A stretch of DNA of 64,000 nt from Lichenicoccus roseus. GTDB taxonomy: Bacteria; Pseudomonadota; Alphaproteobacteria; Acetobacterales; Acetobacteraceae. Shown here one piece after another: positions 10,868-27,180 of the stretch. The notes beneath the pieces were generated by a model. The model was not told where the DNA came from. It saw only the letters and a list, made by a program, of their open reading frames with translations, and ran no database searches. The stretch is taken from assembly GCF_005844085.1 (NCBI RefSeq), contig NZ_VCDI01000002.1, forward strand, positions 620,001 through 684,000, written 5' to 3'. Numbering within the stretch: position 1 is the stretch's first letter; each line of letters starts with the position of its first letter. A program made the translations under genes and the position numbers.

Positions 10868-11266
10868 TCAGGGCAGCTTGGTGCTGTCGACCCGCCAGGG
10901 CCGGGTCAGCCGCCGTTTCGGGCGGCCCGGCTTGTAGGCCATCTCGTGCAGCAGGGTGCCGATCCGCTCGCGCTTGTGCAGCTCGGTCCAGATCTCCTCC
11001 GGCTCCACCCCGGCAGTGGCCCACAGCAGGGTCAGCATGCCGACCAGTTCCGCCGAATGCCCGATCAGCGCCGCCCGGTCATGGGTGACCGCGGCGCCGA
11101 CGCAGGCCATCGCCTCGATGCCGGCCTCCCGGGCGACGCGGGCGATCAGGATCGGCGCCGAGAGATCCTGCCGGGTCGCCTCGTGCAGCGCGGCGTTCCA
11201 GAGCATGGTGAAGGCCCGCTCGGAGGCTTCCACGCCGGCGGTGGCGGGCGCCGTGGCCGGGGTCAA
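10868..11266 (-). CDS. HisE-like (phosphoribosyl-ATP diphosphatase-type) small protein
   Basis: 132 residues, TTG start that overlaps the metH stop as TTGA, so it is translationally coupled to metH. The helical part AELVGMLTLLWATAGVEPEEIWTEL resembles the C-terminal helix pair of HisE/MazG-like pyrophosphatases (a run of the type LLxHLLVLLAxxGV followed by xxVxxEL). The first half is less recognisable, and the acidic metal-binding set of true HisE is not clear. It may be a house-cleaning pyrophosphatase or a HisE paralogue rather than the histidine enzyme; the family call is tentative. Confidence 0.6.
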   Translation of the reverse strand: MTPATAPATAGVEASERAFTMLWNAALHEATRQDLSAPILIARVAREAGIEAMACVGAAVTHDRAALIGHSAELVGMLTLLWATAGVEPEEIWTELHKRERIGTLLHEMAYKPGRPKRRLTRPWRVDSTKLP

Positions 11267-14200
11267 ACCGTGAAGTACTTCGCGTGCGGGTTCAGGATCA
11301 CCAGCGCGCTGGTCGATTGCTCGGGGTGCAGCTGGTAGCCGTCCGACAGCGTGACGCCGACCCGTTCCGCCTCCAGCAGGCCGAGCAGCGGCACCTGGTC
11401 CTCCAGCTTCGGGCAGGCCGGATAGCCGAACGAGTAGCGCGAGCCGCGGTAGCCCTGCTGCAGCAGCTTGTCCATGTCGCGGTCGTCCTCGGACGAGTAG
11501 CCCAGCTCGGCGCGCATCCGCTTGTGGGCATACTCCGCCATCGCTTCCGCCATCTCGACCGACAGGCCGTGCAGGTAGAGGTAGTCCTGGTAGCGGTTGC
11601 CCTCGAACCAGTCTCGCGCGATGTCGGACGCCTTCTGGCCGACGGTCACCACCTGCAGGCCGATCACGTCGCGCACGTTGTCGTCGATGTCACGCACGAA
11701 ATCGGCGATGCAGGCGCCGTCCTCGCGTGGCTGGCGGGGCAGCGTGAAGCGCGCCACCTCGGTGCTGCCGTCCGGCTCGAACAGGATCAGGTCGTTGCCC
11801 TGTCCGGCCGCCTTCCAGTAGCCGTACACCGCCTGCGGCCGCAGGATCTGCTCGGCATTGGCCAGTGCCAGCATACGCCGCAGCACCGGGCGAAGCTCCT
11901 GCTTGGCCCAGCCGAGGAACTCCTCCAGGGAGCGGCCCTGCTTCCGGAAGCCCCACTGGAACTGGTACAGGCTGCGCTCATTGAGGAACGGCAGCACCGC
12001 CTCGGGCGTCGCCTCGATGGTGCGCGGTCCCCAGAACGGCGGCTCCACCGGATCGAGGCCGGCATTGAGGCCGCGCCGGCGTGCCTGCACGGCGGCCACG
12101 TCGACCGGCGCGAAGCCGCGGTTCTCCTGCTGCTCCGGCTCCCGCTTGTTCGCCCGCGCCTTGTTGCCGCGCCGCGATTTCAGCGCCGCCAGGTAGTCAT
12201 CGAAGCCGCCGGTGCTGACCTTGTCCATCAGCCCGAGACCATCGAAGGCGTCGCGCGCATAGGCGACGCGCCCCGACGTGCCATACGCGGCGACGCAATC
12301 CTCCTCGACATAGTTGCGGGTCAGCGCGGCCCCGCCCAGCAGCACCGGGATATCGAGCCCCTGGCGCGCCATCTCCTCGAGGTTCTCGCGCATCACCACG
12401 GTGGATTTCACCAGCAGCCCGGACATGCCGATGGCGTGCGCGCGCTCCTTCTTCACGGCCGCCACCATGTCGGCGAGCGGCACCTTGATGCCGAGGTTGA
12501 CCACCCGGTAGCCGTTGTTGGTCAGGATGATGTCGACCAGGTTCTTGCCGATGTCGTGCACGTCGCCCTTCACCGTGGCCAGCACGATGGTGCCGCGCTC
12601 CTGGCCCTCGACGCGCTCCATGTGCGGCTCGAGATGCGCCACCGCGGCCTTCATGGTCTCGGCGGACTGCAGCACGAACGGCAGCTGCATCTTGCCCGAG
12701 CCGAACAGCTCGCCCACCGTCTTCATGCCGTCGAGCAGGATGGTGTTGATGATGTCCAAGGGCTTGTTGGTCAGCATCGCGAGGTCGAGCTCGGCCTCCA
12801 GCCCCTTGCGATCGCCATCGACGATGCGGTCGCGCAGCCGCTCCTCGACGGTCTCGGCACGGCCCTTCTTGGCGACGTCGGCCAGCTTGCGGTCGGCGAA
12901 CAGCTCGAGCAGCCGCTGCAGCGGATCGTAGTCTTCGCGCCTGCGGTCGTAGATCAGGTCCTCGGCGACCTGAACCTCCTCGGCGGCGAGCAGGTGCAGC
13001 GGGCGGATCTTGCTGACATGCACGATCGCGCCGGACATGCCGGCCCGCACCGCATGGTCGAGGAACACCGAGTTCAGCACCGCGCGCGCGGCGGCATTCA
13101 GTCCGAACGAGATGTTGGACAGGCCGAGGATGATCTGGATGTCGGGGTATTTCTTCCGGATCAGCCTGATGCCCTCGATGGTCCACTCGCCGAGCTTGCG
13201 GTCGTCCTCGGACCCGGTCGCCACCGTGAAGGTGAGGGGGTCGATCAGCAGGTCCGATTGCGGCAGGCCGTGCTTGTCGCAGGCGAACTCGACCAGGCGC
13301 GTCGCCACCGCGAGCTTGCGCTCCGGGGTCTTGGCCATGCCCTCCTCGTCGATGGTCAGCGCGATCACCGCGGCGCCGAACTTCTTGGCCAGGATCAGCC
13401 GGTCGGCGGCGGCCTGCTCGCCATCCTCGAAATTGATCGAGTTGATGATCGGCTTGCCGCCATGCAGCTTGAGCGCCGCCTCGATGACGTTGGTCTCGGT
13501 GCTGTCGATCACCAGCGGCGCATTCACGCTGCTGGTGAAACGTGTGATCACCTCGTTCATCTCGGCGACCTCGTCGCGGCCGACGAAGGCGGTGCAGATG
13601 TCGAGGCTGTTGGAGCCCTCGGCGACCTGCTCGCGCCCGACCGACACGCAGCCGTCCCAGTCGCCGGTCTCCTGCAGTTCGCGCCACTTGCGCGAGCCGT
13701 TGGCGTTGCAACGCTCGCCGATCGAGAAGTAGCTGTTCTCCTGGCGCAACGGCACCTGGCTGTACAGGCTGGCCACCGACGGCACCCAGACCGGCGATCG
13801 CTTCACGGGGACCGGCCGGGAGCCGCTGCCGGCGCGCTTGCGCAGCATGGCGTCCATCGCCTGGATATGCGGGGTCGAGGTGCCGCAGCAGCCGCCGATC
13901 AGGTTGAGCCCGTCCTCGGCGATGAAGCGCTCCACCCAGGACGCCATCTCGGCGGCTCCCAGGGGATAATGCGTCTGCCCGTTCACCAGCTCCGGCAGGC
14001 CGGCATTGGGCTGCACCGACAGCAGGCCGGGCCAGTTGGTGGCCAGCCAGCGGACGTGCTCGGCCATCTCCTGCGGCCCGGTGGCGCAGTTCAGTCCGAG
14101 CAGCGGCACGTCGAGGGCGTGGATGGTGGTGGCCGCCGCCGCGATGTCGGGGCCAACCAGCAGGGTGCCGGTGGTCTCGACGGTGACCTGCACGAAGATC

Positions 14201-14757
14201 GGGGTGTCGGTGCCGGCTTCCAGGCGGGCCAGCTTGGCGCCGTTGACGGCCGCCTTGATCTGCAGCGTGTCCTGGCAGGTCTCGATCAGCAGCGCATCGA
14301 CGCCGCCGGCGATCAGGCCGCGGCATTGCGCGGCGAGGGCCGCCTCCAGCGGATCGTAGGCGATGTTGCCCAGGCTCGGCAGCTTGGTGCCCGGGCCGAT
14401 CGAGCCGATCACCCAGCGGTGGCGGCCGTCCGAGAAGCTGTCGGCCGCCTCGCGGGCCAGCTCGCCGGCGATGCGGTTGATCTCGTGGGTGCGATCCTCG
14501 AGGTCGAACTCGGCCAGCGTGATCGGCGAGCCGCCGAAGCTGTTGGTCTCGACCATGTCGGCGCCGGCCTCGAAGTAGCCGCGATGGATCTCGCGCACCA
14601 GCTCCGGCCGCGACAGGTTCAGCACCTCGGTGCAGTTCTCGCGGTTCCAGTAGTCCGCCTCGACGTCGAGCGTCAGGCTTTGAACCCGCGAGCCCATGCC
14701 GCCGTCGCACAGCAGCACCTGGTCGCGCAGGGCATCGAGTAGGTGGGGTCTTGTCAT
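11263..14757 (-). CDS. metH: Cobalamin-dependent methionine synthase
   Basis: 1164 residues, all four modules present. Homocysteine-binding domain (1-~310) with zinc ligands Cys224 (LNCATGPQ) and Cys290-291 (GGCCGTS). Pterin-binding domain ~340-600. B12 cap and B12-binding domain with DVHDIG at 732-737 (His734 is the lower cobalt ligand). C-terminal AdoMet activation domain with RGSRYSFGYPACP near the end. It transfers the methyl group of methyltetrahydrofolate to homocysteine via cob(I)alamin. A HisE-like gene follows with TTGA coupling. The upstream leader has a short perfect hairpin but no recognised B12 or SAM/SAH riboswitch. Confidence 0.97.
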   Translation of the reverse strand: MTRPHLLDALRDQVLLCDGGMGSRVQSLTLDVEADYWNRENCTEVLNLSRPELVREIHRGYFEAGADMVETNSFGGSPITLAEFDLEDRTHEINRIAGELAREAADSFSDGRHRWVIGSIGPGTKLPSLGNIAYDPLEAALAAQCRGLIAGGVDALLIETCQDTLQIKAAVNGAKLARLEAGTDTPIFVQVTVETTGTLLVGPDIAAAATTIHALDVPLLGLNCATGPQEMAEHVRWLATNWPGLLSVQPNAGLPELVNGQTHYPLGAAEMASWVERFIAEDGLNLIGGCCGTSTPHIQAMDAMLRKRAGSGSRPVPVKRSPVWVPSVASLYSQVPLRQENSYFSIGERCNANGSRKWRELQETGDWDGCVSVGREQVAEGSNSLDICTAFVGRDEVAEMNEVITRFTSSVNAPLVIDSTETNVIEAALKLHGGKPIINSINFEDGEQAAADRLILAKKFGAAVIALTIDEEGMAKTPERKLAVATRLVEFACDKHGLPQSDLLIDPLTFTVATGSEDDRKLGEWTIEGIRLIRKKYPDIQIILGLSNISFGLNAAARAVLNSVFLDHAVRAGMSGAIVHVSKIRPLHLLAAEEVQVAEDLIYDRRREDYDPLQRLLELFADRKLADVAKKGRAETVEERLRDRIVDGDRKGLEAELDLAMLTNKPLDIINTILLDGMKTVGELFGSGKMQLPFVLQSAETMKAAVAHLEPHMERVEGQERGTIVLATVKGDVHDIGKNLVDIILTNNGYRVVNLGIKVPLADMVAAVKKERAHAIGMSGLLVKSTVVMRENLEEMARQGLDIPVLLGGAALTRNYVEEDCVAAYGTSGRVAYARDAFDGLGLMDKVSTGGFDDYLAALKSRRGNKARANKREPEQQENRGFAPVDVAAVQARRRGLNAGLDPVEPPFWGPRTIEATPEAVLPFLNERSLYQFQWGFRKQGRSLEEFLGWAKQELRPVLRRMLALANAEQILRPQAVYGYWKAAGQGNDLILFEPDGSTEVARFTLPRQPREDGACIADFVRDIDDNVRDVIGLQVVTVGQKASDIARDWFEGNRYQDYLYLHGLSVEMAEAMAEYAHKRMRAELGYSSEDDRDMDKLLQQGYRGSRYSFGYPACPKLEDQVPLLGLLEAERVGVTLSDGYQLHPEQSTSALVILNPHAKYFTV

Positions 14758-15297: not shown

Positions 15298-15497
15298 AGA
15301 CAAAGCAGATCCTGTCATTGCGGCGCAGTAGCGAAATTTTATCGGAAAAAACCGGGCCTTCATGCTAAGGCTCGCCGCCGGATTGCTCGTTCCGGTTGAT
15401 CCCGGCAGCGCTGCGGACCGGTCTGGTCATGCTGGCGGCCGCGTTCATCGCGCCACGTCGTTTCAGCCGCGATGATGAGTTGTACAGAGGGAAGCCC

Positions 15498-17762
15498 GTG
15501 GCACATACCAGCGATAATTCGTCCGCGACTGGTGGCGCGACACATGGTGAGCCAGGCGGCGCGGGCGCGCAGGTAGACGGTCGTCTGGTGCGCCTGCGCG
15601 CGATCATGGCGGCGGCGCGCTACCACGGCGCCGAACTGGTGGCCGCCGACTATCGCGGCCCGATCACCGAAGTAACCCCGTCGCCGGCGAGCCTGGTGCA
15701 GTGGCTGAGCGAGCAGGGCATGGTCGCCAAGGCGATGTCGCTCAAGTTCCGCTACCTGGTCCGCATGACGAACACGCCGCCCTTCGTGCTGATTTTCAAG
15801 GATGGCGGCGCCGGCCTTTTCGTGGGCGCCGATCCCGCGCGCGGCGTGGTGTGGCTGCGCGATCCGATGGGCACCGAGGGCGATATTCCGGTCGCCGTCG
15901 ACGAGTTGCGGCTCTCGCAGGTCTGGACCGGCGACGTCGTGCTGGTGCAGCGCAGCCGAAACCAGTCGGAGAACGAGGCGCCGATCAACCTCGCCTGGCT
16001 GACGCGGATGGTGCTGCGCGAGCGCCGCTCGCTGCGCGACATCTCGATCGCCTCCGTCGTGCTTTCCCTGCTCACGATCTTTCCCGCGCTGATCGTCATG
16101 CAGGTGATCGACAAGGTGGTGAACCATCATTCGATGGCCACCCTGATCGCCATCTCGATGATCATCCTCACGCTGACCTCGTACGAGACGCTGCTCAGCT
16201 ACGGACGGCGCGAGATCGTCCTGGTGCTCTCCACACGGCTCGACAGCCGCATCGCGCTGGTGATCTTCTCGCGGCTGCTGTCGCTGCCGCTGGAATATTT
16301 CGAGCGCCAGCAGGCCGGCACCGTGATCGGCCGCGTGGCGCAGATCTACAAGGTGCGCGACTTCATCACCGGCAAGCTGATGAGCACCTTCCTCGACATG
16401 TTCACCCTGATGGTAATCCTGCCGTTCCTGTTCTTCATGTCCTCCACGCTGGCCTGGATGACGATGGCCGCCGCCGGGCTGATCGGCCTGCTGGTGGTGA
16501 TCTTCATCGGCCCGGTCGGCCGCCTGATCGGCCGCGTGATCGCCGCCGAGATGCGCCGCGCCAACATCATGTACGAAAGCGTCGCCGGCATACGCACGCT
16601 GAAGACCCTGGCGCTGGAGCCGTCGCGCCGCGTCGAGTGGGACGTCGCCACCGCCGACGTGGTGCGCGCCAAGCTCGATGCCGGGCGGATGGCGAACTGG
16701 CCGTCGACGCTGTCGATGCCACTCGAGATGTTCATCAGCCGCGGCGTGATCCTGGTCGGCGCCTACCTGCTGCTGACCGGCAGCAGCACGCTCGGCGCCG
16801 GCGGGCTGGTCGCCTTCATGATGCTGGGCGGCCGCGTCGCCTCGCCACTCGTCTCGCTGGCCAAGCTGCTTGAGGAATTCACCGAGGTGCGCTCGGCGCT
16901 CGGCGAGGCGGGTGCGGTGCTGAACCAGCCGACCGAGACCAAGGCGCTGACCAACGGCATGCGTCCGCGCATCGAGGGTGCGCTGTCGTTCGAGGACGTC
17001 AACTTCACCTACCCGGCCGGCAGCACCAAGGCGCTGGACGAGGTCAACTTCGAGATCCCCGCCGGCACCTCGCTCGGCATCGTCGGGCGGTCCGGCTCCG
17101 GCAAGTCGACCCTCACCCGCCTGCTGCAGGGCGTCAGCCGCAACTACACCGGCTTCCTCAAGCTCGACGGCGTCGACCTGCGCGAGATCAACCTGACGCA
17201 TCTGCGCAAGTCGTTCGGCGTGGTGCTGCAGGACAACTTCCTCTTCCGCGGCACCATCCGTGACAACATCACCGCCAATCGCCCGGGCCTGACGCTGGAG
17301 GATGCGGTGCGCGCCGCCCGCCTCGCCGGCGCCGAGGAGTTCATCGAGCGCATGCCCGGCGGCTACGAGACCTGGATCGAGGAGGGCTCGACCAACATCT
17401 CCGGCGGTCAGCGGCAGCGCCTCGCCATCGCGCGCGCGGTGATCACCGATCCCAAGCTGATGATCCTGGACGAGGCGACCTCGGCGCTCGATCCGGAAAG
17501 CGAGGCGCTGGTGAACGCCAACCTCAAGCGCATCAGCAAGGGCCGCACGATGATCATCGTGTCGCACCGGTTGTCGTCGCTGGTCGATTGCGACCTGATC
17601 CTGGTGATGGAGCGCGGCAAGGTCGCCGACCTCGCGCCGCACGAGGTGCTGGTCGAGCGCTGCGCCATCTACCGCCAGCTCTGGCTGCAGCAGAACCGCC
17701 ATCTCGATCCGCAGGGCAACAAGCGGGTGACACCCGCCCCGCTGCTGGCAGAGGGAGACTGA
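15498..17762 (+). CDS. Type I secretion ABC transporter (HlyB-like ATPase/permease)
   Basis: 754 residues from a GTG preceded by GAGGGA; the open frame continues upstream but without a ribosome site. Residues ~25-130 resemble a C39 peptidase fold but have no catalytic Cys, i.e. the degenerate C39-like domain of HlyB-type exporters. Six membrane segments follow (~165-430), then the nucleotide-binding domain: Walker A GRSGSGKS (530-537), ISGGQRQR (634-641), LMILDEATSALD (~654-665) and the H-loop VSHRLSS. Such transporters export RTX or adhesin proteins using a C-terminal signal without cleavage. It is followed three bases later by its HlyD partner. No TolC or substrate gene lies nearby. Confidence 0.92.
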   Translation: MAHTSDNSSATGGATHGEPGGAGAQVDGRLVRLRAIMAAARYHGAELVAADYRGPITEVTPSPASLVQWLSEQGMVAKAMSLKFRYLVRMTNTPPFVLIFKDGGAGLFVGADPARGVVWLRDPMGTEGDIPVAVDELRLSQVWTGDVVLVQRSRNQSENEAPINLAWLTRMVLRERRSLRDISIASVVLSLLTIFPALIVMQVIDKVVNHHSMATLIAISMIILTLTSYETLLSYGRREIVLVLSTRLDSRIALVIFSRLLSLPLEYFERQQAGTVIGRVAQIYKVRDFITGKLMSTFLDMFTLMVILPFLFFMSSTLAWMTMAAAGLIGLLVVIFIGPVGRLIGRVIAAEMRRANIMYESVAGIRTLKTLALEPSRRVEWDVATADVVRAKLDAGRMANWPSTLSMPLEMFISRGVILVGAYLLLTGSSTLGAGGLVAFMMLGGRVASPLVSLAKLLEEFTEVRSALGEAGAVLNQPTETKALTNGMRPRIEGALSFEDVNFTYPAGSTKALDEVNFEIPAGTSLGIVGRSGSGKSTLTRLLQGVSRNYTGFLKLDGVDLREINLTHLRKSFGVVLQDNFLFRGTIRDNITANRPGLTLEDAVRAARLAGAEEFIERMPGGYETWIEEGSTNISGGQRQRLAIARAVITDPKLMILDEATSALDPESEALVNANLKRISKGRTMIIVSHRLSSLVDCDLILVMERGKVADLAPHEVLVERCAIYRQLWLQQNRHLDPQGNKRVTPAPLLAEGD

Positions 17763-17765
17763 GCC

Positions 17766-19220
17766 ATGGCCAGCAAGGATCTCGTCACCGCCGGCGGCCC
17801 CGTTCCCGGCCGCCCCGATAGCCCGAAGCGTCCGCCGCGCCGCCGCATGCGCGAGGAGGAGCTGCCGCAGGCGCTTCTCGAATTCCACTCGCCGAGCGCC
17901 GCCCTGGTGGCGATGCCGCCGTTGCCGGTGGCGCGTTGGATCATCTGGATCGTGGGCGCGCTGGCGATCACCATGCTGACGGTGATGGGCACCTTCCCGC
18001 TGGACCGCGTGGTCACCACGCCCGGCGAGCTGGTCTCCACGGCGCGCACCATGCTGGTGCAGCCGCTGGAGACCGCGATCGTGAAGTCGATCGACGTCAA
18101 GGAAGGCGAGGTGGTGCACAAGGGCCAGGTGCTCGCGCATCTCGACCCGACCATCGCCGGCGCCGACGAGAACAACCTGCGCGCCCAGACCTATGCCTAC
18201 GAGGCGCAGGTGAACCGGCTGCAGGCGGAGGCGGCGGGGACACTGTTCCGGGCCGACCTCGCCAACCCGGCCTCCACCGCTGAAGCCGCCGCGTACATGC
18301 GCCGCCAGGCCGAGTTCCGCGCCAAGCTCAACAACTACACCCAGCAGATCAGCGCGCTGCGGTCGGATGTCACCGGCTACCAGGCGTCGGCGGCGATGTA
18401 TGCCGGCCGCGTCAAGCTGGCCAAGGACGTGCGCAACATGCGCGTCCAGCTGCAGCGCGACCAGGTCGGCAGCCGGCTGTCGTCGCTGTCGGCGCAGGAC
18501 GACCTGATGGAGATGCAGCGCTCGCAGGTGACCGCGCAGGAGAACGCCGCCGGCGCGCGCGGCAAGCTGTCGGCGATGGTCGCCGAGCAGGAAGGCTTCG
18601 TGCAGAACTGGAAGGCGCAGATCTACCAGGACCTCTCCGAGGCCCAGCACAAGTACTACGAGGCGCGCGGCGACCTGGAGAAGGCGGTGCTGCGGCAGAG
18701 CCTGGTGGTGATGCGCGCCCAGGCCGACGCCGTGGTGCTGACCATCGCCAAGGTGTCGATCGGCTCGGTGCTGAGCCCGGCGACCCAGTTCATCACGCTG
18801 GTGCCGCTCGACGCGCCGCTGGAGGTGGAGGCCAGGCTGAAGGGCTCCGACTCCGGCTACGTGAAGCTAGGCGATCAGGCGCTGATCAAGTTCGCGACCT
18901 TCCCGTACACCCAGTACGGCGGCGCCACCGCGACCGTCCGCAACGTCAGCGCCGACAGCTTCACCAAGGATCAGCAGCAGGCCAGCCAGTCGCAGGGCGG
19001 CGACAGCCAGGGCAGCGCGATGCCCGGCGGCTCGCCGGACACCTACTACCGGATCCGCCTGCGCGTCGACGGCTACACCCTGCACGGCGTGCCGAACTAC
19101 TTCCACCCGACGCCCGGCATGCCGGTGACCGCCGACATCAAGGTCGGCAAGCGCACCATCCTGCGCTACCTGCTCAGCTCCGTGCTGCCGGTGGCGACCG
19201 AAGGCATGCGCGAACCCTGA
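17766..19220 (+). CDS. HlyD-family membrane-fusion adaptor of the type I secretion system
   Basis: 484 residues. A cytoplasmic Pro/Arg-rich tail of ~55 residues is followed by one membrane helix (58-76, WIIWIVGALAITMLTVMGT), then the lipoyl half (VKSIDVKEGEVVHKGQVLAHLDPTI), a long Gln/Ala-rich coiled coil (~165-330) and the beta-barrel with the second lipoyl half. Near the C-terminus a Gln/Ser/Gly insertion (SQGGDSQGSAMPGGSP) interrupts the barrel. It ends in the family-typical GMPVTADIKVGKRTILRYLLSPV-like segment. It bridges the ABC exporter to an outer-membrane channel encoded elsewhere. Confidence 0.92.
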   Translation: MASKDLVTAGGPVPGRPDSPKRPPRRRMREEELPQALLEFHSPSAALVAMPPLPVARWIIWIVGALAITMLTVMGTFPLDRVVTTPGELVSTARTMLVQPLETAIVKSIDVKEGEVVHKGQVLAHLDPTIAGADENNLRAQTYAYEAQVNRLQAEAAGTLFRADLANPASTAEAAAYMRRQAEFRAKLNNYTQQISALRSDVTGYQASAAMYAGRVKLAKDVRNMRVQLQRDQVGSRLSSLSAQDDLMEMQRSQVTAQENAAGARGKLSAMVAEQEGFVQNWKAQIYQDLSEAQHKYYEARGDLEKAVLRQSLVVMRAQADAVVLTIAKVSIGSVLSPATQFITLVPLDAPLEVEARLKGSDSGYVKLGDQALIKFATFPYTQYGGATATVRNVSADSFTKDQQQASQSQGGDSQGSAMPGGSPDTYYRIRLRVDGYTLHGVPNYFHPTPGMPVTADIKVGKRTILRYLLSSVLPVATEGMREP

Positions 19221-19310
19221 GCATCCTAGCCGTCCGGGGGCAGCGCCGGCCGCGACCTTGTTCCATCGATCACTCGACGCATTACCAGGCCCAGCGAGGC
19301 GACGTTTCGG

Positions 19311-21122
19311 ATGGCCAGTCTATTTCGACACTACCTGGCGTCGCTGTTCTCGCCGGCCGGCAAACTCGCGTACGGCCTTGAGCTGATCGAGGCCGGCGAC
19401 ACCAGGCGCGCCTTCGCTGCACTGACCGCAGCCGCCGCCGCCGGAATCCCGGAGGCGCAGTTCCGGGTCGGCCGCGCCTATCTGGACGGCGCCGGGGTGC
19501 CGGTCAGCCGCGAGGAGGGTGCACGCTGGATGCAGCGCGCCGCCGAGGCCGGCTGGGTCGAGGCACAGTTCGTGCTGGCGACGCTGCACCTGTTCGGCCT
19601 GGGCTCGGCCGGCGGCGGCACGATGGCGCTGTTCTCGCAGGCGCCGCAGCAGGAGACCGCCCGCGCCGATTTCATCCAGGCAGCCTACTGGGCGGAGCGG
19701 GCGGCGAAGGCGGGGTCTCCCGACGGGCAGGCGCTGTACGGCTACATCCTGACCTCCGGCCCGGAAGAGCTGCGCGATCTCGAGAAGGCCGGCCACTGGT
19801 ATCGCCAGTCGGCCGCCGCCGGCTCGGCGCAGGGCGCGCTCGGCCTCGGGCTTGCGTTGCTCGCCCGTGCGGAAGACCCGGAGATCCAGCAGCAGGCCGC
19901 CATCGAGCTGACCAAGGCGGCCGCCGGCGGGCTTGCCACCGCGATCTACCTGCTCGGCGTGATGACCGAGCGCGGCGCCGGCGTGCAGCAGGACCTCGCC
20001 GCCGCCACCAACCTGTACCGGCAGGCGGCCGAGAAGGGCGTGCGCTCCGGGCAGGCGCGCTACGGGCTGGCGTTGATGCAGGGGCGCGGCGTCCAGCGCG
20101 ACGTGGTCGGCGGCGAAACCTGGCTGCGCAAGGCGGCGCTGGCCGGCGACGGCGAGGCGGCCGCGCTGATCGGCGACCTGTATGCCAAGGGCGGCGACCT
20201 GCCGCCGAACTATGCCGAGGCTGCCGGCTGGTATGGCCGCGCCGCGGAGGCCGGACACGCCGCGGCGTCCCGCGCGCTCGGCCTGCTCTACCTGACCGGG
20301 GCGGGCGTGCAGCGCGATCCGGACGAGGCGGCGCGCTGGTTCCGCCGCTCCGCCGAGGCCGGCGACCATGCGGCGCAGGTCGATCTGGCCAACCTGGTGA
20401 TGGGCCATGACGGCGTTGACGCAGAGGCCGACCGCGTCGCCACCCGCGAACGCTTCGAGAAGGCGGCGGCCGGTGGCGACCTGGTGGCGGCGTTCAACTT
20501 CGGGGTCTGCCTGGCCGAAGGCGTCGGCGTCGAGCGCGACGAGCGCAAGGCGGCGCTGTGGCTGCGCCGTGCCGCCGACGGCGTTGTCAACGCGCAGTAC
20601 TGGTATGGACGCATGCTCGCCGAGGGACGCGGCGTCGAGGTCGACCTGAAGGAGGGCCGGCACTGGATCGCACGCGCCGCCGAGTCCGGCATGGTGGATG
20701 CGCAGCTGGCCTATGCGGAGCTGCTGCTGGCCGGGCGCGGCGGCGACCGCGACCATGCGGCGGCGCTGGAGATGTTCGAGCGTGCAGCGGCGACCGGCAA
20801 CGTCAATGCGCTGTTCTCGGTCGGCGCGATGCATGGCGGCGGCCATGAGATTCCGGAGAACCGGGTGGTGGCGCAGGGCTTCTTCCGGCAGGCGGCGGAG
20901 CGCGGGCACGCCAAGGCGCAGCTGATGCTGGGCCGCTACCTCGCCCGCGGCGTCGCCGGCGAGACCGACATCCCGCAGGCACGCACCTGGCTGCAGCGCG
21001 CCAGGTCGCAGGGCAACGCGCAGGCCGAGGCGGAGCTGGCGCGGCTGGGCGAGCCGGCGGCGGCCCCGGCGGAGGGCGAGCGCCCGGCGGCCCAGGTGGT
21101 CCGCTCCGCCTCGGGACACTGA
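19311..21122 (+). CDS. Sel1-like tandem-repeat protein
   Basis: 603 residues made almost entirely of about a dozen Sel1-type (TPR-like) helical pairs. Each carries the A..G...AQ..LG..Y..G.GV..D...A..W...AA..G pattern, for example GDTRRAFAALTAAAAAGIPEAQFRVGRAYLDG at the N-terminus. No clear signal peptide; the first helix is mildly hydrophobic. Sel1 proteins are scaffolds for protein-protein contacts and occur beside secretion and surface-glycan systems. It sits 90 bases after the HlyD gene and 34 bases before the large glycosyltransferase, on the same strand, so it probably assembles with them. The specific partner is unknown. Confidence 0.88.
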   Translation: MASLFRHYLASLFSPAGKLAYGLELIEAGDTRRAFAALTAAAAAGIPEAQFRVGRAYLDGAGVPVSREEGARWMQRAAEAGWVEAQFVLATLHLFGLGSAGGGTMALFSQAPQQETARADFIQAAYWAERAAKAGSPDGQALYGYILTSGPEELRDLEKAGHWYRQSAAAGSAQGALGLGLALLARAEDPEIQQQAAIELTKAAAGGLATAIYLLGVMTERGAGVQQDLAAATNLYRQAAEKGVRSGQARYGLALMQGRGVQRDVVGGETWLRKAALAGDGEAAALIGDLYAKGGDLPPNYAEAAGWYGRAAEAGHAAASRALGLLYLTGAGVQRDPDEAARWFRRSAEAGDHAAQVDLANLVMGHDGVDAEADRVATRERFEKAAAGGDLVAAFNFGVCLAEGVGVERDERKAALWLRRAADGVVNAQYWYGRMLAEGRGVEVDLKEGRHWIARAAESGMVDAQLAYAELLLAGRGGDRDHAAALEMFERAAATGNVNALFSVGAMHGGGHEIPENRVVAQGFFRQAAERGHAKAQLMLGRYLARGVAGETDIPQARTWLQRARSQGNAQAEAELARLGEPAAAPAEGERPAAQVVRSASGH

Positions 21123-21156
21123 GGCTGGCCCGGCAGGGCGCATCGGTCGATCCCCG

Positions 21157-24100
21157 ATGCGCCTGCGGGTAGCGCGGGTCACCGCGGCGCACCGGGCGAA
21201 GTGGCGGAGCTGGACCCAGGAGCAGGCGCAGGCGGCGTTCCTGCACGGCCAGGCCGCCATCGCATCCGGCGATGACGACGGCGCCCGGCGCTGGTTCGAG
21301 CGGTCGCGGCGGATCAGTGGCGGCGCTCCGCAGGTGGAGTTCGCTCTGGCCATGTCGCGGCTGCTGACCGGCGATGCGGCCGGCGCCGCGGACCTGCTGA
21401 ACCGGCTGTTGCGCCGCTACGACTTCCGCGAGGGTGGGACGGCGCTGGCGACCGCCCTGCACCGGGTGGGCGCGCAACGGGACGCCGCCCGGGCGTTGTC
21501 CCGGGCGCTGTCCCGCCATGCCCCCGCCGGGTGGCTGCTGGCGGGGATGGACGCCATTGCACGCGACGCCGGATGGCCCGGCTGGTGCGGGCTCGACGGC
21601 AGCGGCCGGCTGCTGGCCGACGGCGCCGACGCCTTCGCGCAGGGCCCGGTGGTCGAGGTCCTGGTGGATGGCGCGCCCGTCGCGCGCCTGCCGCCGGACT
21701 GGCGCAGCGCGCGCCGCATCGAGGTGAGGCGACGGGGTGTGGCGCTGCTCGGCAGCCCGCTCGACATCGGCTCGATCCTGCGCTGCGAGGGCTTCGTCGA
21801 ATGCCTCGATGGCGGCAGGCTGCTGCAAGGCTGGCTATGGCATCCGGGCGAGGCGGAGCGCGCGCCGCTGCTGACCATCGAGGCCGCGGACGGCACGCTG
21901 ATCCGGCATCGGCTGGAGGCGGTCGCCGAAGCGATCGAGTCTGAGGCGCCGCTCACCCGTCCGCGTGCGCTCTCCATCCCGTTCTCGGCTCTGCCGGAGG
22001 GAACCGTGCGGCTGTTCGGGGATGATGGCAGGGAACTGACCGGCAGCCCGATCACCCCGGCGCTGCGCCGGTCGTGGCGCCCCGGCCTCGTGCGGCAGAC
22101 CCGGATCCCCGTGCGGCAGATCGAAGGCCCGGCGCGGCAACCGGCATCCCGGCCGCCGGCGCCCGGCCCGGACGTGGTGATCCCGGTGCATGGCGGCCTG
22201 GATTGCACACTGGCCTGCATCGCCAGCGTGCGCGCCTCGCGGCGGTCCGATGCCGGGCGCATCGTCGTGGTGGACGATGCCGGGCCGGAACCCGCTCTTG
22301 CGCGGGCGCTGGACGTGCTCGCCGCCGAGGGCGCGATCGTGCTGATCCGGCTGCCCCGCACCCTCGGATATCCCGGCGCCGCCAATGCCGGCATCGCCGC
22401 CTGCGCTCGCCGTGACGTGATGCTGCTCAACAGCGACACGCTGGTGCCGCCGGGCGCCATCGAGGCGCTGCGTACGGCGGCCTACAGCGCGCCCGACATC
22501 GGCAGCGTCACCCCGCTCTCCAACGACGCCAGCATCTTCAGCTATCCCGACCGCGGCGGTGGCAACCCGTTGCCGGACCAGGCCGGCGTCGCCGCCCTGA
22601 TGGCCCTGGCGGCTGCAGCCAATGGCGGCGAGGTCATCGATGTGCCGACCGGGCACGGCTACTGCCTCTATCTCCGGCGCGACTGCCTGCAGGACAGCGC
22701 ACGGGGCGGCGGCGTCTTTCGCACCGACCTGTTCGCGCAGGGCTACGCCGAGGAGAACGAGTTCTGCCTGCGTTCGGCGGCGCGCGGCTGGCGGCATGTC
22801 GCCGCCACCGGCATCTATGTCGGCCATGTCGGCCAGGCCTCGTTCGAAGTGGCGGTCGGCGCCGCGCGCACCGCGCTCATGCGGCGCAACCTGGCAACGC
22901 TGAACCGGCTGCATCCCGGCTACGACGCCCTCGTCGAGGCGCATATCGCCGCCGATCCGCTTGCCCGGTCGCGGCGCCGGATCGACCGGCGGCGCTTCGT
23001 TGCCGGCCGCGGCTCGCCGCCCGCCGGCGTGCTGCTCATCACCCACGACGAGACCGGCGGGGTATCGCGCATCGTGGCCGAACGGGCGGCGTCGATCGCC
23101 AGGCGGGGACTGCGGCCGGTCGTGTTGCGTCCGGTGGGTGGCGGCTGCCTGGTCGATGTGCCGCAGGCGGATGCGCCCGACCGCCACGCGACGCCGAACC
23201 TGGTGTTCCGGCTGCCGCAGGAGATCGACCTGCTGGTGGAGCTGCTGGCCGGGGAGGGGCTGGTGCATGCGGAATGGCACCATTTCCTCGGCCATCATCC
23301 GGTGCTGCGCACGCTGTGCGACCGGCTCGGCCTGCCGTTCGACATGGTGATCCACGACTATGCCTCCTTCTGCGCGCGTATCGCCCTGGTCGGGCCGACC
23401 GGGCGCTATTGCGGCGAACCCGACCTTGCCGGCTGCGATGCCTGCATCGCGCTGCAGGGCAGCCTGCTCGGCGAGGCGATTGCCCCCGCCGACCTGTATG
23501 AACGCTCGCTTGCGGAATTCGTGCGGGCGCGCCGGGTGGTGGCGCCTTCGATCGATGCGTGCGTGCGGATCGCGCGCCACTTCACGGCGGTGCGGCCGGA
23601 GCTGCTGGCCTGGGAAGCGGACCGTCCGGCGGTGTCGCTGCAGGATTTCGCGGACCGTGCCCCGCCGCGGCTCCGCCTGCATCGGGGAGCCGTGCCGCGC
23701 GCGAGGATCTGCCTCATCGGCGGCATCGGCCGGGAGAAGGGCTACGACGTGCTGCTGGCCTGCCTTGGCGACCGCAACCGCCGCGACCTGGAGCTGGACT
23801 TCATCCTGGTCGGATCGACCCGTGACGACGCCGCGCTGCTGGAAGCGGGCTGCTCCGAGGTGACCGGCGCCTACCGCGAGGCGGAAGCGGTCGCCCTGGT
23901 CCGCGAGCAGCGATGCGACCTCGCCTGGCTGCCGTCGATCTGGCCGGAGACCTGGTGCTTCACGCTGACCCTGGCCTGGCGGGCCGGCCTGAACGCCGTC
24001 TGCTTCGATATCGGCGCGCAGGCGGAGCGCGTGCGCGCCACCGGACGCGGCACCGTGCTGCCGCTGGCGCTGCCGGCACCGGCCATCAACGACGCCCTGC

Positions 24101-24159
24101 TGCGGCTCTGCGCGTCGCCGGCCATGATCGACCTGCAGGAAGCGGGGTGGCGTGGCTAG
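21157..24159 (+). CDS. Large multidomain glycosyltransferase (GT2 plus GT4-like)
   Basis: 1000 residues. Residues ~15-130 look TPR-like, with helices of the type AAFLHGQAAIASGDDDGARRWFERS. A GT2 domain starts at ~339 (PDVVIPVHGGLDCTL) with the nucleotide-sugar NSD motif in MLLNSDTLVPPG and a later YAEENEFCLR. A second, GT4-like part starts at ~624 (GVLLITHDETGGVSR) and ends with a donor-site region RICLIGGIGREKGYDVLL...WPETWCFTLTLAWRAG. Two transferase modules in one chain suggest that it builds a two-sugar unit or a polymer. Context (type I exporter, Sel1 protein, second GT4) suggests glycosylation of an exported surface protein or capsule-like glycan; that is inferred. Confidence 0.85.
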   Translation: MRLRVARVTAAHRAKWRSWTQEQAQAAFLHGQAAIASGDDDGARRWFERSRRISGGAPQVEFALAMSRLLTGDAAGAADLLNRLLRRYDFREGGTALATALHRVGAQRDAARALSRALSRHAPAGWLLAGMDAIARDAGWPGWCGLDGSGRLLADGADAFAQGPVVEVLVDGAPVARLPPDWRSARRIEVRRRGVALLGSPLDIGSILRCEGFVECLDGGRLLQGWLWHPGEAERAPLLTIEAADGTLIRHRLEAVAEAIESEAPLTRPRALSIPFSALPEGTVRLFGDDGRELTGSPITPALRRSWRPGLVRQTRIPVRQIEGPARQPASRPPAPGPDVVIPVHGGLDCTLACIASVRASRRSDAGRIVVVDDAGPEPALARALDVLAAEGAIVLIRLPRTLGYPGAANAGIAACARRDVMLLNSDTLVPPGAIEALRTAAYSAPDIGSVTPLSNDASIFSYPDRGGGNPLPDQAGVAALMALAAAANGGEVIDVPTGHGYCLYLRRDCLQDSARGGGVFRTDLFAQGYAEENEFCLRSAARGWRHVAATGIYVGHVGQASFEVAVGAARTALMRRNLATLNRLHPGYDALVEAHIAADPLARSRRRIDRRRFVAGRGSPPAGVLLITHDETGGVSRIVAERAASIARRGLRPVVLRPVGGGCLVDVPQADAPDRHATPNLVFRLPQEIDLLVELLAGEGLVHAEWHHFLGHHPVLRTLCDRLGLPFDMVIHDYASFCARIALVGPTGRYCGEPDLAGCDACIALQGSLLGEAIAPADLYERSLAEFVRARRVVAPSIDACVRIARHFTAVRPELLAWEADRPAVSLQDFADRAPPRLRLHRGAVPRARICLIGGIGREKGYDVLLACLGDRNRRDLELDFILVGSTRDDAALLEAGCSEVTGAYREAEAVALVREQRCDLAWLPSIWPETWCFTLTLAWRAGLNAVCFDIGAQAERVRATGRGTVLPLALPAPAINDALLRLCASPAMIDLQEAGWRG

Positions 24160-24301
24160 GGCCGGCCCGCCCGGGTTTCGCACCGCGCCAAGAAGACCCG
24201 GGGCATTCGGTCGCAAAAAGATGTTATGACGGCGCAATATCGCGCCGTGCCGTGATGGCGCCCGACATGGCCGCCGGCGCAATAGTCCGGGAAGCGACCA
24301 G

Positions 24302-25372
24302 ATGACCACAGCCCCAAGCCAGACGCTCGTCGCGGAACTCAAGGTCTCCGGCCACCTGATGACCCTGGAGCCGGGCCTGTACTGCGTGTTCCACGCCCCG
24401 GGCAGCGTCGCCGCCGATGCACAGACCGGGCTGCCCGGGGTGCGCATCTCGCATCCGCCGGTGCAGGAAGCCGGACTGCGGGAGCCCGGCCCGCGGGAGA
24501 CCGGACCGCGCGAGAGGGGGCAGCTCGCCCTCCGTACCTTCAGCGAGGATGGCTGGATCGGGGCCTCCGGCGGCGCCGCACTGGTGCGCGTGCAGGGTGC
24601 CCCGGCGCAGCTTCTGGTGACCATCTACCAGAGCGCCGTCGTGCAGCACGAGGCGCCGAAGCTGCAGGTCATGCGGCTCGGCGATGTCGCGGCGCCGGCC
24701 GCACCGGCGCCCGAGGCGGTGGCCGGGGACGGCGGGCCGCCGGGCGGCGGCGCCTTCGGGGCGTCCGACATCCAGCCGGCGATGCCATCCGTGCATGGGT
24801 TTGCCGAGGCCGCGGCGGCCAGTCCGACCGCCGGCGTGCCGGCGGCCGAGGAGGTCTGGGAGGTTGCCGCTCATATCCAGCGGCGCGGTGACCGGCTTGG
24901 ACGGCTCGGCGAGTGGATGGGCCAGCGCGGCAGCCAGAACTGGATCGAGGGTTTCGCGCTCGCGCCCACCCGCCAGATCGGCCTCTCCGACATCGAATAC
25001 CAGGCCGTGCTCGGCAAGGGCTGGCTGTCGCCCTGGTCGGATGGCGGCCAGTATTGCGGCAGCCGCGGCATGGCGCTGCCGATCCTGGGCCTGCGCGTGC
25101 GGCTGAAGGGCGAGGCCGCGCAGACCCACACGCTGCGGATCAGCGCCACCTTCACCGACGGCAGCGCGATCGGACCGGCGCCCGACACCCAGACCCTGGA
25201 GGCGGAGAGCCTGGCGCCGCTGGAAGCCTTCCTGGTCGAGATCGTGGCGAACGCCGCAGCGACGGCCAAGCCCATTCCGCCGGTCCCCGCCGCCGCGGTC
25301 GCCGTGGCGAAGGTCGTCCGGGCGGTGCCGGCTGCGGTCGACAAACCGGCGCCCCGCGGCAAGCGGCGCTAG
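24302..25372 (+). CDS. Unrecognised protein of the secretion/glycosylation locus
   Basis: 356 residues, no firm family. A first beta-rich segment (~1-125) contains a pair of PRE..PRE repeats (LREPGPRETGPRERG). An Ala/Pro linker follows, then a second beta domain (~180-310) with spaced Trp/Gly motifs: QNWIEGFAL, YQAVLGKGWLSPWSDGGQYCGSRGMALPILGLRVRL. The W...G.....G..G....L.G...RL pattern resembles bacterial ChW-type surface repeats, weakly. The tail is Ala/Val/Pro- and Lys/Arg-rich. No signal peptide. It lies between two glycosyltransferase genes on the same strand, so it may be a carbohydrate-sensing or acceptor protein; this is speculation. Confidence 0.7.
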   Translation: MTTAPSQTLVAELKVSGHLMTLEPGLYCVFHAPGSVAADAQTGLPGVRISHPPVQEAGLREPGPRETGPRERGQLALRTFSEDGWIGASGGAALVRVQGAPAQLLVTIYQSAVVQHEAPKLQVMRLGDVAAPAAPAPEAVAGDGGPPGGGAFGASDIQPAMPSVHGFAEAAAASPTAGVPAAEEVWEVAAHIQRRGDRLGRLGEWMGQRGSQNWIEGFALAPTRQIGLSDIEYQAVLGKGWLSPWSDGGQYCGSRGMALPILGLRVRLKGEAAQTHTLRISATFTDGSAIGPAPDTQTLEAESLAPLEAFLVEIVANAAATAKPIPPVPAAAVAVAKVVRAVPAAVDKPAPRGKRR

Positions 25373-25394
25373 ACGGAAGGCGAGGCCACGGCAC

Positions 25395-26654
25395 TTGCGC
25401 TACCTGTTCGTCCACCAGAACTTCCCGGGCCAGTTCCTGCATCTCGTGCGGCACCTGCTTCGGCAGAACGAGGGCGGCGCCGAGAACGAGATCGTCTTCA
25501 TCAGCGAGCCGAACCAGAATGCGATGCCCGGTGTACGCAGGGTGTCGTACTGCATGCCCAGGGAGGCGGCGGCGGAGACGTTCGCGGTCGCGCAGGAATT
25601 CGAGCTTGCGACCCTGCGGGCCGATCAGGTGGCGCAGACCGCGCGCGCGCTGCGCCAGCTCAACTACCAGCCGGATATCATCATCGGCCATCACGGCTGG
25701 GGCGAGCTGCTCAACCTGCACGACGTGTTTCCCGACACGCCGATGCTGGGCTATCTGGAATTCTACTACCACACCGACAGCTTCGATGTCGGTTTCGACC
25801 CGGAGTTTCCCTCCGACGCCTCGATGTTTCCCCGCGTGCGCGCCAAGAACGCGGTGAACCTGCTGGCGCTCACCAACAATCCGTTGCGCAGCCGCGGCCA
25901 GACGCCGACCTGGTTCCAGCGCTCGACCTATCCCGCCTGGGCCCACGAGCAGATCACCGTGCTGCCGGAAGGCGTGGACTTGGATATCTGCCGGCCGGAC
26001 CCGCTGGCGGCCGCCCGCGAGCTGGTGCTGCCGGTGGCCGGCGGCACCCCGGTGGTCGTGCATCCCGGCGAGAAGCTGGTGACCTATGTCGCCCGCGACC
26101 TGGAGCCGTATCGCGGTTTCCACGTCGTCATGCGGGCGCTGCCCCGTATCCTGCAGGCAAGGCCCGATGCCCGCATCGTGCTGGTCGGCGGCGACGGCGT
26201 CAGCTACGGCGCGCGGCTCTCGGAGGGCAGCTGGCGCGAGTACATGCTGCGCGAGGTCGGTGCCAGCCTCGACCCGTCGCGGGTCCATTTCGTCGGCAAG
26301 CAGTCCTATGCGTCCTACGTCGCGCTGCTGCAGCGCTCGGACGCACACATGTACCTGACCTACCCGTTCGTCGCCTCGTGGTCGCTGCGCGAGGCGATGG
26401 CTGTCGGCTGCCCGATCGTGGCGAGCGACACCGCGCCGGTGCAGGAATTCATCCGCGACCGGGAGACCGGGCTGCTGACGCCATTCCACCAGCCCCGCGT
26501 ACTCGGCGACCGCGTGCTCGAGCTTCTGGAGGACACCACGCTGTCTGCCCGCCTACGGCACGCGGTGCGCGCCGAGGCCGAGCGGACGCTGTCGATGCGC
26601 TCCTATATCGCCAACTACGAGGCGCTGATCCGGCGCACCATGCAGGCAGGCTGA
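25395..26654 (+). CDS. Glycosyltransferase family 4 (GT-B fold)
   Basis: 419 residues from a TTG with an AAGGCGAGG site upstream. N-terminal acceptor half begins RYLFVHQNFPGQFLHL, the start seen in a GT4 subgroup of proteobacterial glycan loci. The donor half contains the nucleotide-sugar region YVARDLEPYRGFHVVMRAL, a strand ARIVLVGGDG and the EX7E-like SWSLREAMAVGCPIVASDTAPVQEFI with the two glutamates. Cytosolic enzyme that transfers a sugar from a nucleotide donor. It is the last gene of the secretion/glycosylation locus and ends one base from the convergent ppa. Confidence 0.9.
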   Translation: MRYLFVHQNFPGQFLHLVRHLLRQNEGGAENEIVFISEPNQNAMPGVRRVSYCMPREAAAETFAVAQEFELATLRADQVAQTARALRQLNYQPDIIIGHHGWGELLNLHDVFPDTPMLGYLEFYYHTDSFDVGFDPEFPSDASMFPRVRAKNAVNLLALTNNPLRSRGQTPTWFQRSTYPAWAHEQITVLPEGVDLDICRPDPLAAARELVLPVAGGTPVVVHPGEKLVTYVARDLEPYRGFHVVMRALPRILQARPDARIVLVGGDGVSYGARLSEGSWREYMLREVGASLDPSRVHFVGKQSYASYVALLQRSDAHMYLTYPFVASWSLREAMAVGCPIVASDTAPVQEFIRDRETGLLTPFHQPRVLGDRVLELLEDTTLSARLRHAVRAEAERTLSMRSYIANYEALIRRTMQAG

Positions 26655-26655: not shown

Positions 26656-27180
26656 CTACTTCGACGCCGCTGCCAGGGACGCGCGGATCACCTCGGCCGC
26701 CTCCTCCTTGGAGGCCCAGCCGGTGACCTTCACCCACTTGCCCTTCTCGAGATCCTTGTAGCGGGTGAAGAAGTGCTCGATCGTCTGTCGGGTGATCTCG
26801 GGCAGGTCGTCCACGCTGTGCACCGAGGTGTAAAGCGGGTGGATCTTGTCGTGCGGGACGCAGATGATCTTCTCGTCCTGCCCGCTCTCGTCCTCCATCT
26901 TCAACATGCCGATCGGGCGCGCGCGGATGACGGCGCCCGGCACCACCGGCGCCGGCGTCAGCACCAGGGCGTCGGCCGGATCGCCATCGTCGGCCAGGGT
27001 GCCCGGGATGAAGCCGTAGGCGGCGGGGTAGGCCATCGGCGTGAACAGGAAGCGGTCGACCACCAGGGCGCCGCTTTCCTTGTCGACCTCATACTTGACC
27101 GCCGAGCCTTCCGGGATCTCGATGACCACGTTGATGTCCCAGGGCACATCCTTGCCGGGACTGATCTTCGAGACGTCCAT
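26656..27180 (-). CDS. ppa: Inorganic pyrophosphatase
   Basis: 174 residues, family I pyrophosphatase of the hexameric bacterial type. Metal-binding aspartates appear in [12 protein letters not shown] (the D..GD..D signature), and the substrate-contact KYEVDKESG and [10 protein letters not shown] segments are intact. It removes PPi from biosynthetic reactions in the cytosol. Monocistronic by position: a convergent glycosyltransferase on one side and an 80-base gap to the next minus-strand gene on the other. Confidence 0.97.

Follow-up and report, generated by a model that had tools for sequence, protein, structure and literature searches.

A candidate glycosylating type I secretion unit for RTX-type proteins in the Acetobacteraceae

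Type I secretion systems pass unfolded proteins through a narrow channel, and their TolC-type outer membrane channel is usually unlinked. The rhizobial PrsDE exporter, a type I system of Alphaproteobacteria, serves several RTX-type cargoes encoded elsewhere in the genome, the Rap adhesins and Ply glycanases, which act on surface glycans. In the HMW1ABC two-partner secretion system a Gram-negative surface protein is glycosylated in the cytosol by HMW1C before export. The accessory Sec system of Gram-positive bacteria consists of SecA2, SecY2 and the Asps. The tandem-repeat proteins of Ehrlichia are intracellular effectors. The repeat-rich SRR surface glycoproteins are glycosylated inside the cell and then exported by a transporter of their own, assisted by accessory proteins (PMC5578698). 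Work cited in PMC10225607 reports glycosylation of the Ehrlichia tandem-repeat proteins, which may be a precedent for type I substrates that carry glycans. In the literature that we searched we found no dedicated glycosylation partner for type I secretion. Here we describe a six-gene unit of Lichenicoccus roseus and propose, at a probability of about 0.6, that it may be a dedicated glycosylate-and-export unit for RTX-type repeat proteins.

The unit occupies positions 15396-26654 of the window, the whole 64,000-nucleotide stretch of DNA that was analysed. The first-pass annotation had placed six open reading frames in order on one strand, and all six were confirmed in position on the + strand. 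The gaps calculated from the coordinates are 3 bp between exporter and adaptor, 90 bp between adaptor and Sel1 gene, 34 bp before the large glycosyltransferase gene, 142 bp between this gene and that for P0005, and 22 bp before the last gene. The neighbours, provisionally named by reading their sequence, are metH upstream (11263-14757, - strand) and ppa, for inorganic pyrophosphatase, downstream (26656-27180, - strand).

The first gene (15396..17762, +) encodes a HlyB-like type I secretion ABC exporter, P0001; its start may be the TTG at 15396, the ATG at 15429 or the GTG at 15498, the last having been used in the earlier annotation, and the choice between them is uncertain. The ABC_membrane and ABC_tran domains score above the Pfam cut-off, the best NCBIfam match is to TIGR01846 (513 bits, under its cut-off of 725 bits) and a search of PDB sequences aligns residues 162-764 with HlyB at 363 bits. 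Pfam reports no C39 domain in the exporter up to an E-value of 0.1; we infer a C39-like N-terminus because residues 70-752 align to TIGR03375 and residues 71-767 match the PCAT bacteriocin transporter in the PDB sequence search. P0001 has cysteines at positions 732 and 756 only, so that a catalytic cysteine in the C39-like domain is impossible; in seven of 15 relatives, counted by residue number, a cysteine is present somewhere in residues 1-230 of the exporter. Judged by its sequence, P0001 would be the ABC exporter with a non-cleaving C39-like domain that is expected of HlyBD-type secretion. The HlyD-type periplasmic adaptor (17766..19220, +) also has the character expected of such a system, scoring 330 bits against TIGR01843 (cut-off 209), and in 12 of the 15 genomes tested, including L. 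roseus, the adaptor of the unit is the only HlyD above this curated cut-off. The L. roseus genome also has a second, NHLM-like exporter of the peptide type, which we count against a glycosylate-and-export function.

The third gene (19311..21122, +) encodes a protein of 11 Sel1 repeats (PF08238, 228 bits), which sits between the adaptor and the large glycosyltransferase in all 78 complete loci and is possibly a scaffold. The glycosyltransferase that follows, P0004 (21157..24159, +), had been described as a double enzyme of 1000 residues, and this description holds: its GT2 part is above the Pfam cut-off and its GT4-like part just under it (Glyco_trans_1_4, 26.1 bits, cut-off 27), with a faint TPR signal at the N-terminus. 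The N, S and D of its GT2 NSDT motif are invariant across 18 aligned sequences, and P0004 has no relative among PDB sequences at E≤0.001. The last gene (25395..26654, +, TTG start) had been assigned to a GT4 enzyme, as borne out by a PF12000 N-terminal domain at 183 bits; the SWSLREA motif of this enzyme is invariant across 26 aligned sequences, and its best NCBIfam match, a weak one, is to the exopolysaccharide enzyme EpsE (62.5 bits, cut-off 400).

Between the two glycosyltransferases lies P0005 (24302..25372, +), a protein of 356 amino acids with an N-terminal beta domain, an Ala/Pro-rich linker, a ChW-like C-terminal domain and a basic tail. Its ChW match (PF07538) reaches 21.5 bits against a Pfam cut-off of 22; some relatives score above the cut-off (22.6, 30.9, 31.2 and 29.0 bits) and others have no listed ChW match. 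The linker and tail are variable, and the C-terminus is mostly basic, unconserved and almost missing in some members. The predicted model of the whole protein has a pLDDT of 78.7 and led to no named fold, its best matches (Foldseek E 0.074, Z 5.8) covering the N-terminal domain only. The ChW-like domain modelled alone (residues 186-320; 24857..25261, +) is predicted with a pLDDT of 95.2 and a pTM of 0.90, and has no clear fold match in the PDB (best Foldseek E 0.33, best Z 3.6). P0005 has no PDB sequence relative up to E 1, and a profile of the ChW-like domain finds two PDB sequences only, at E 0.77 and 1. ChW domains occur in cell-surface proteins of Gram-positive bacteria. Elsewhere the ChW-like domain is fused to GT2+GT4, GT61, GT90 or methyltransferase-like parts, and because of these repeated fusions to glycosyltransferases it probably works in the cytosol.

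The six genes are conserved as a set. Once duplicate contigs are removed, 98 distinct loci remain, of which 73 contain the complete set in a single order and on a single strand; before removal, 78 of 104 loci were complete, and all 78 shared order and strand (the 104 exclude L065-L071, which are paralogue regions and a contig recurring as L125). Most incomplete loci stop at a contig end, and six of the 26 deviate without this explanation, which we count against a dedicated unit. The flanks vary: among complete loci whose contig reaches far enough, metH lies upstream in 11 of 37 and ppa downstream in 15 of 71, and since the six genes stay together throughout we count this for a dedicated unit and against mere common descent. 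Across 120 Acetobacteraceae genomes, exporter and P0005 orthologues occur together in 81, the exporter alone in four, P0005 alone in none and neither in 35; here seven genomes with exporters of 38-40% identity were scored as lacking the orthologue, and one genome with a paralogue domain only (G395) was dropped, which reduced the P0005-positive genomes from 82 to 81. Even genomes as small as about 2 Mb retain the unit. The proposed link between exporter and glycosyltransferases is strongly supported by the 81/81 P0005-positive genomes that have the exporter and by the complete loci; neither of the patterns named beforehand as contrary to it, glycosyltransferase and Sel1 genes always without the exporter or an exporter always with an unrelated partner, was seen. 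A few contigs carrying other record names look mislabelled.

No candidate substrate is encoded in the window, as the first-pass annotation had noted: the L. roseus genome has 11 PF00353 matches, all of them outside it, and our substrate profiles A2 and A3 find nothing within it. A search of the window and 111 other loci, including up to about 10 kb of flank, found no A2/A3 substrate beside the six-gene locus itself, which we count against the glycosylate-and-export reading; the only match lay in a paralogue cluster of genome G018. The candidates instead form a dispersed family of RTX-type proteins, Gly/Ser/Thr-rich, Lys/Arg-poor and mostly of 400-530 amino acids, and they are likely the cargo of the unit. 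L. roseus itself has three strong A2/A3 proteins, as expected for an HlyBD-type system with RTX-type substrates. Of the 81 genomes with the locus, 59 have a match to profile A3 at E≤1e-10, as do 5 of the 39 genomes that lack the locus; like the exporter and P0005 counts, these treat genomes as independent, regardless of phylogeny. The expectation of an RTX or adhesin gene that always co-occurs is therefore borne out as to co-occurrence and not as to "always", and we count the 22/81 locus-positive genomes without such a match against the glycosylate-and-export reading; here, as in the exporter and P0005 counts, absences are soft because only part of the first-look candidates (8 to 41 per genome) was scored. 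The suggestion of an adhesin or large surface protein likewise survives in so far as an RTX-type partner exists, which is encoded elsewhere in the genome and is usually not giant. A missing PF00353 match in three genomes (G013, G029, G032) was considered as evidence against RTX cargo and rejected, since an A3-type protein is present in G013 and G032; in G029 the locus is complete and matches to A3 and to PF00353 are both missing, which does count against the reading.

The candidate cargo genes also lie near glycosyltransferase genes. In some cases a large glycosyltransferase gene lies immediately downstream of the candidate, and in the L. roseus genome each of the three best substrates has a large glycosyltransferase gene after it on its own strand. 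The G018 cluster encodes in a row a 1043-residue RTX-like protein and paralogues of P0004 and P0005, and a genome of another family (G312) encodes in a row an RTX protein (PF00353, 111 bits), a TPR-GT2-GT4-ChW fusion, a methyltransferase and a PF12000 GT4. With HMMs built from main-locus proteins only, 18 of 64 flank sides of substrate genes and 6 of 76 control sides have a glycosyltransferase within 3 kb (one-sided p 0.0015); six-frame segments were used because some glycosyltransferases escaped codon-bias gene calling. An earlier version of this test was discarded as circular, its HMMs being partly seeded from substrate neighbours; it gave the same counts (6/71 control sides once duplicate contigs were removed), and with the six seed loci left out the difference was not significant (9/52 versus 6/76, two-sided p 0.16). 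An RTX-type gene is singly paired with a glycosyltransferase gene at 10 of 38 substrate loci, and the HMMs find none within 3 kb at 24 of them, which we count against the reading together with the loss of significance without the seed loci; two loci had been dropped from this count, one without an A2 match (L264) and one that is not a substrate region (L270).

We count the gene set and order, the co-occurrence of exporter and P0005, the single HlyD, the co-occurrence and glycosyltransferase adjacency of the cargo, and the ChW fusions in favour of a glycosylate-and-export unit. In the mechanism that we propose, RTX-type repeat proteins with an uncleaved C-terminal secretion signal would be made in the cytosol, where the GT2-GT4 enzyme and the PF12000 GT4 would build a glycan on them, the ChW-like protein holding either the glycan as it grows or the acceptor once glycosylated, with the Sel1 protein acting as a scaffold. 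Some substrates may receive the attention of an extra, private glycosyltransferase encoded beside them. The C39-like domain of the exporter would bind the cargo without cutting it, and exporter, HlyD and an unlinked TolC would pass the glycoprotein out of the cell, where calcium may fold it into a surface or matrix glycoprotein. Both the cytosolic site of glycosylation and the role in adhesion are inferences.

The glycosyltransferases might instead make a surface or matrix polysaccharide, with the type I system exporting RTX proteins that bind or trim it and no protein being glycosylated. Polysaccharide synthesis commonly involves enzymes of the GT2 and GT4 families, the best, though weak, NCBIfam match of the last gene is to EpsE, and ChW domains are familiar from the Gram-positive cell surface; yet no polymerase, flippase, initiating phosphotransferase or polysaccharide exporter is recognised among the six proteins, and the single pairing of RTX-type with glycosyltransferase genes, together with the ChW-like fusion adjoining the RTX gene in G312, makes this rather unlikely. 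That P0005 is itself the cargo, a glycosylated and exported lectin-like protein with an Ala/Pro-rich linker, we consider quite improbable. It is encoded within the unit, its variable linker and tail are as secreted proteins have them, and ChW domains occur in surface proteins, but it has no RTX match, its domain recurs in fusions with glycosyltransferases and methyltransferase-like proteins that are presumably cytosolic, and its C-terminus, where a type I signal is expected, has the basic and poorly conserved character described above.

Independence of exporter and glycosyltransferases, held together through common descent only, would fit the finding of the six-gene unit in one bacterial family among the genomes searched. 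This is very hard to reconcile with flanking genes that change around a constant set of six, with exporter and P0005 being both present or both absent in 116 of 120 genomes, and with the linkage of glycosyltransferase, P0005-type and RTX genes in another arrangement outside the Acetobacteraceae.

Whether the glycosylate-and-export unit amounts to a widespread, undescribed glycosylating type I system of the Acetobacteraceae, with a shared exporter and core machine, dispersed RTX-type cargo, some of it with a glycosyltransferase of its own, and a ChW-like cytosolic module that holds the acceptor for protein-glycosylating enzymes in general, we judge to be evenly balanced. If it does, much of this family, whose members include vinegar, plant and bee-associated bacteria (81/120 genomes), would be coated with type I secreted glycoproteins, which raises the question of how a glycosylated chain gets through a type I channel. 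It would also hint at what the Sel1 and ChW-like proteins do, and at an accessory module common to several glycosyltransferase families.

Among the described systems, the Ehrlichia tandem-repeat proteins differ in that we met no report of a dedicated glycosyltransferase locus for them, and we know of no conserved glycosyltransferase, Sel1 and ChW set in a PrsDE operon. HMW1ABC has another exporter, of type V, another glycosyltransferase family and a signal-peptide route; no TpsB pore or HMW1C is among the Pfam and NCBIfam matches listed for the six proteins (for P0001, the best 25 of 191 NCBIfam matches). Wzx/Wzy or ABC polysaccharide export parts are likewise not recognised among the six. In its logic, the proposed unit is best read as comparable to the SRR adhesins and accessory Sec; the exporter here is of HlyB/HlyD type I, the candidate substrates belong to the RTX type and have their genes outside the unit, and Pfam and NCBIfam recognise no SecA2/SecY2-like protein among its six products. 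It resembles HlyBD-type secretion of RTX proteins in its HlyB-like exporter, the Cys-free C39-like N-terminus, the TIGR01843 adaptor and the RTX-type candidates, and departs from it in having substrates outside the operon and, as fixed partners, two glycosyltransferases, a Sel1 protein and a ChW-like protein.

The six-gene set recognized in the first-pass annotation is real: in the 4.79 Mb genome of Lichenicoccus roseus, part of which forms the window, six plus-strand open reading frames (15396-26654), separated by 3 to 142 bp, lie between genes on the other strand that we take, from their sequences, to be metH and inorganic pyrophosphatase. They encode, in order, an ABC exporter, an HlyD adaptor, a Sel1-repeat protein, a GT2-GT4 protein, a 356-residue protein with a ChW-like C-terminal domain (24302-25372) and a PF12000 GT4 enzyme; these names are backed by Pfam and NCBIfam, partly with scores under the curated cut-offs. 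We compared 104 loci encoding the 356-residue protein (24 neighbourhoods and the best 80 of 294 from a collection of species genomes). All six genes are present in 78, with identical order and strand in every one; without six contigs that occur twice, complete loci number 73 of 98. The incomplete loci comprise 20 truncated by a contig end, which lies 0 to 812 bases before the first visible core gene, and six in which the unit is split or has no GT2-GT4 gene (L050, L058, L060, L061, L062 and L159). Four of the six genomes concerned, G012, G019, G026 and G034, have the exporter orthologue on a separate contig; L061 (G031:C272, 4606-4795) has no GT2-GT4 gene between the Sel1 gene and that of the 356-residue protein, the others being in order. 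Where complete loci carry enough sequence, metH precedes the unit in 11 of 37 and the pyrophosphatase gene follows it in 15 of 71; the unit therefore stays intact while its surroundings change.

The closest relatives of the 356-residue protein in the collection of species genomes mostly bear Acetobacteraceae titles; of 120 genomes of this family, 82 have a match (one to a paralogous domain only) and 92 have the exporter at E<=1e-150, seven of these at just 38-40% identity. Counted as orthologues, both proteins are present in 81 genomes, the 356-residue protein alone in none, the exporter alone in four, all of them fragmented into 720 to 1110 contigs, and neither in 35. Occurrence outside the family is rare: among 289 genomes sampled from the class, with up to seven candidates scored per genome, two were from outside it. 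Exporter and glycosyltransferase unit thus occur together across genomes, and we saw neither of the patterns named beforehand as speaking against their link, namely glycosyltransferase and Sel1 genes always without the exporter, or an exporter always tied to an unrelated partner. The locus was also seen at 47-49% identity on contigs titled Solirubrobacterales, Nitrosovibrio or Terriglobia (L147, L141 and L143); L147, from the same contig as G027:C213, matches a family-genome contig in length and is identical to it at the gene of the 356-residue protein, and these record names may therefore be wrong or the contigs mis-binned.

The only cysteines of the exporter are residues 732 and 756, which rules out cysteine protease activity for its C39-like N-terminus; seven of 15 relatives have a cysteine somewhere within the first 230 residues, counted irrespective of the active-site position. 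Among the PDB matches listed, the best-scoring bacterial exporter is HlyB (363 bits), the top matches overall being two-domain P-glycoproteins. The locus HlyD is the sole TIGR01843 protein above cut-off in 12 of 15 genomes searched, with two such proteins in G033 and three in G017. A weaker second HlyD/ABC pair in the L. roseus genome (G000:C1:618000-630000, 4027-5367 and 5364-7493 of L313) has an ABC part nearest to NHLM peptide (bacteriocin) exporters, all scores falling below curated cut-offs. Wherever the locus exporter is the sole canonical one, we infer that it is the natural exporter of RTX-type proteins.

Candidate cargo of this type was reached from PF00353 matches in the L. roseus and related genomes. 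The open frames encode 400 to 526 residues in 29 of the 38 loci examined and 286 to 1643 in the rest; a short conserved motif stands at the start and a conserved region, captured by profile A3, at the end. Five members contain 16-24% Gly, 20-25% Ser+Thr, at most 2% Lys, at most 0.7% Arg and no Cys. In a 60-genome set, A3 exceeds 52 bits in 20 of 26 locus-positive against 2 of 34 locus-negative genomes. The adhesin-like partner anticipated to co-occur always with the locus thus has a counterpart in this RTX-type family, but "always" fails: at E<=1e-10 in the 120-genome family sample, A3 is found in 59 of 81 genomes with the locus and in 5 of 39 lacking it, counts uncorrected for phylogeny. An RTX match at about 213494 of G000:C22 (L010) lies within an 8358-residue open frame, a possible giant repeat protein. 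An RTX-type gene adjoins an NAD synthase gene in G009 (by Pfam) and G032 (judged by eye; L244 and L232), perhaps a conserved position.

Each of the three best cargo genes of L. roseus has a large glycosyltransferase gene after it on the same strand, one of which encodes a GT2-GT4 protein related to that of the locus. A glycosyltransferase-positive segment lies within 3 kb at 14 of 38 cargo loci, in ten of these immediately after the cargo gene in the same orientation, no more than 134 bases away (stop-to-stop coordinates). With HMMs built from main-locus glycosyltransferases only, 18 of 64 cargo flank sides are positive versus 6 of 76 in the controls (one-sided p 0.0015); once duplicate contigs are taken out, the controls, for which the first HMMs were used, stand at 6 of 71 (p 0.0026), and with the six seed loci excluded the excess (9 of 52, first HMMs) is not significant. 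This HMM test finds no glycosyltransferase within 3 kb of the other 24 loci, among which L248 has a Pfam glycosyltransferase above cut-off and L242 an RgpF-like neighbour under it. In G018, which also has the main locus, a 1043-residue RTX-like protein, missed by A3 at E<=1e-10 and detected by profile A2, is encoded in a row on one strand with paralogues of the GT2-GT4 and 356-residue proteins. In G312, from another family, an RTX protein (PF00353 111 bits, A2 195 bits), a 1324-residue TPR-GT2-GT4-ChW fusion, a methyltransferase and a PF12000 GT4 follow in a row, with a Sel1-like match nearby on the opposite strand and the one TIGR01843 HlyD above cut-off on another contig; a short contig of G281 carries the same fusion type, a methyltransferase-like gene (by eye) and the GT4. 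At L234 (G004:C476, 5430-9233) an RTX-type gene stands with a divergent gene for a 1267-residue WbsX-GT4-GT2 protein; searches of this 480-contig genome found neither the 356-residue protein nor an exporter orthologue.

In the 356-residue protein, an Ala/Pro linker joins an N-terminal beta domain to a 135-residue C-terminal domain, which is followed by a variable, mostly basic tail. The C-terminal domain has 25 invariant columns among 27 sequences, and its ChW match is slightly below cut-off in the window protein and above it in some relatives. The structural model of this domain has high confidence (pLDDT 95.2), but no PDB fold stands out in searches with it. A domain recognized by profile A4 shares an open frame with GT2 and GT4 in G312 and G281, with GT61 in L067, L302, L304 and L305, with GT90 in L303 and L307, and with a methyltransferase-like part in L069, L306, L308 and L311 (Pfam cut-off passed in L306 only); the frames in L309 and L310 have no Pfam match. 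Because of these fusions we argue that the 356-residue protein is probably a cytosolic helper of sugar-transferring enzymes rather than a secreted lectin. At L067 (G027:C195, 5763-7802 and 8407-11787) the neighbour of the GT61-ChW fusion is a 1126-residue protein containing AIDA-type repeats together with a Hint domain; it may represent another class of repeat protein that is glycosylated.

The most economical account of these genes is that the core machine of the locus would glycosylate RTX-type proteins in the cytosol, an additional private glycosyltransferase taking part for some cargoes, and that the products would leave via the adjacent type I system. This sharpens the earlier suggestion of an adhesin or large surface protein glycosylated in the cytosol and exported by that system, for which the exporter-glycosyltransferase link and the RTX-type partner now speak, while the glycosylation chemistry stays a proposal. 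The main rival has the glycosyltransferases make a polysaccharide to which the exported RTX proteins bind; it requires no protein glycosylation, but explains poorly both the pairing of RTX and glycosyltransferase genes and the ChW fusions.

The set is undescribed among the full-text matches listed, a body of literature that mostly leaves subscription papers outside its scope and so does not establish absence from print. The portions seen of a type I secretion review (PMC8277102) mention no glycosylated cargo, and in the passages seen of PMC10225607 glycosylated Ehrlichia proteins appear in the reference list only. SRR glycoproteins are described as glycosylated inside the cell and then exported by accessory Sec (PMC5578698). 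Our locus falls outside that family, since its exporter is of another type, but intracellular glycosylation before dedicated export is the nearest known logic to the route proposed here.
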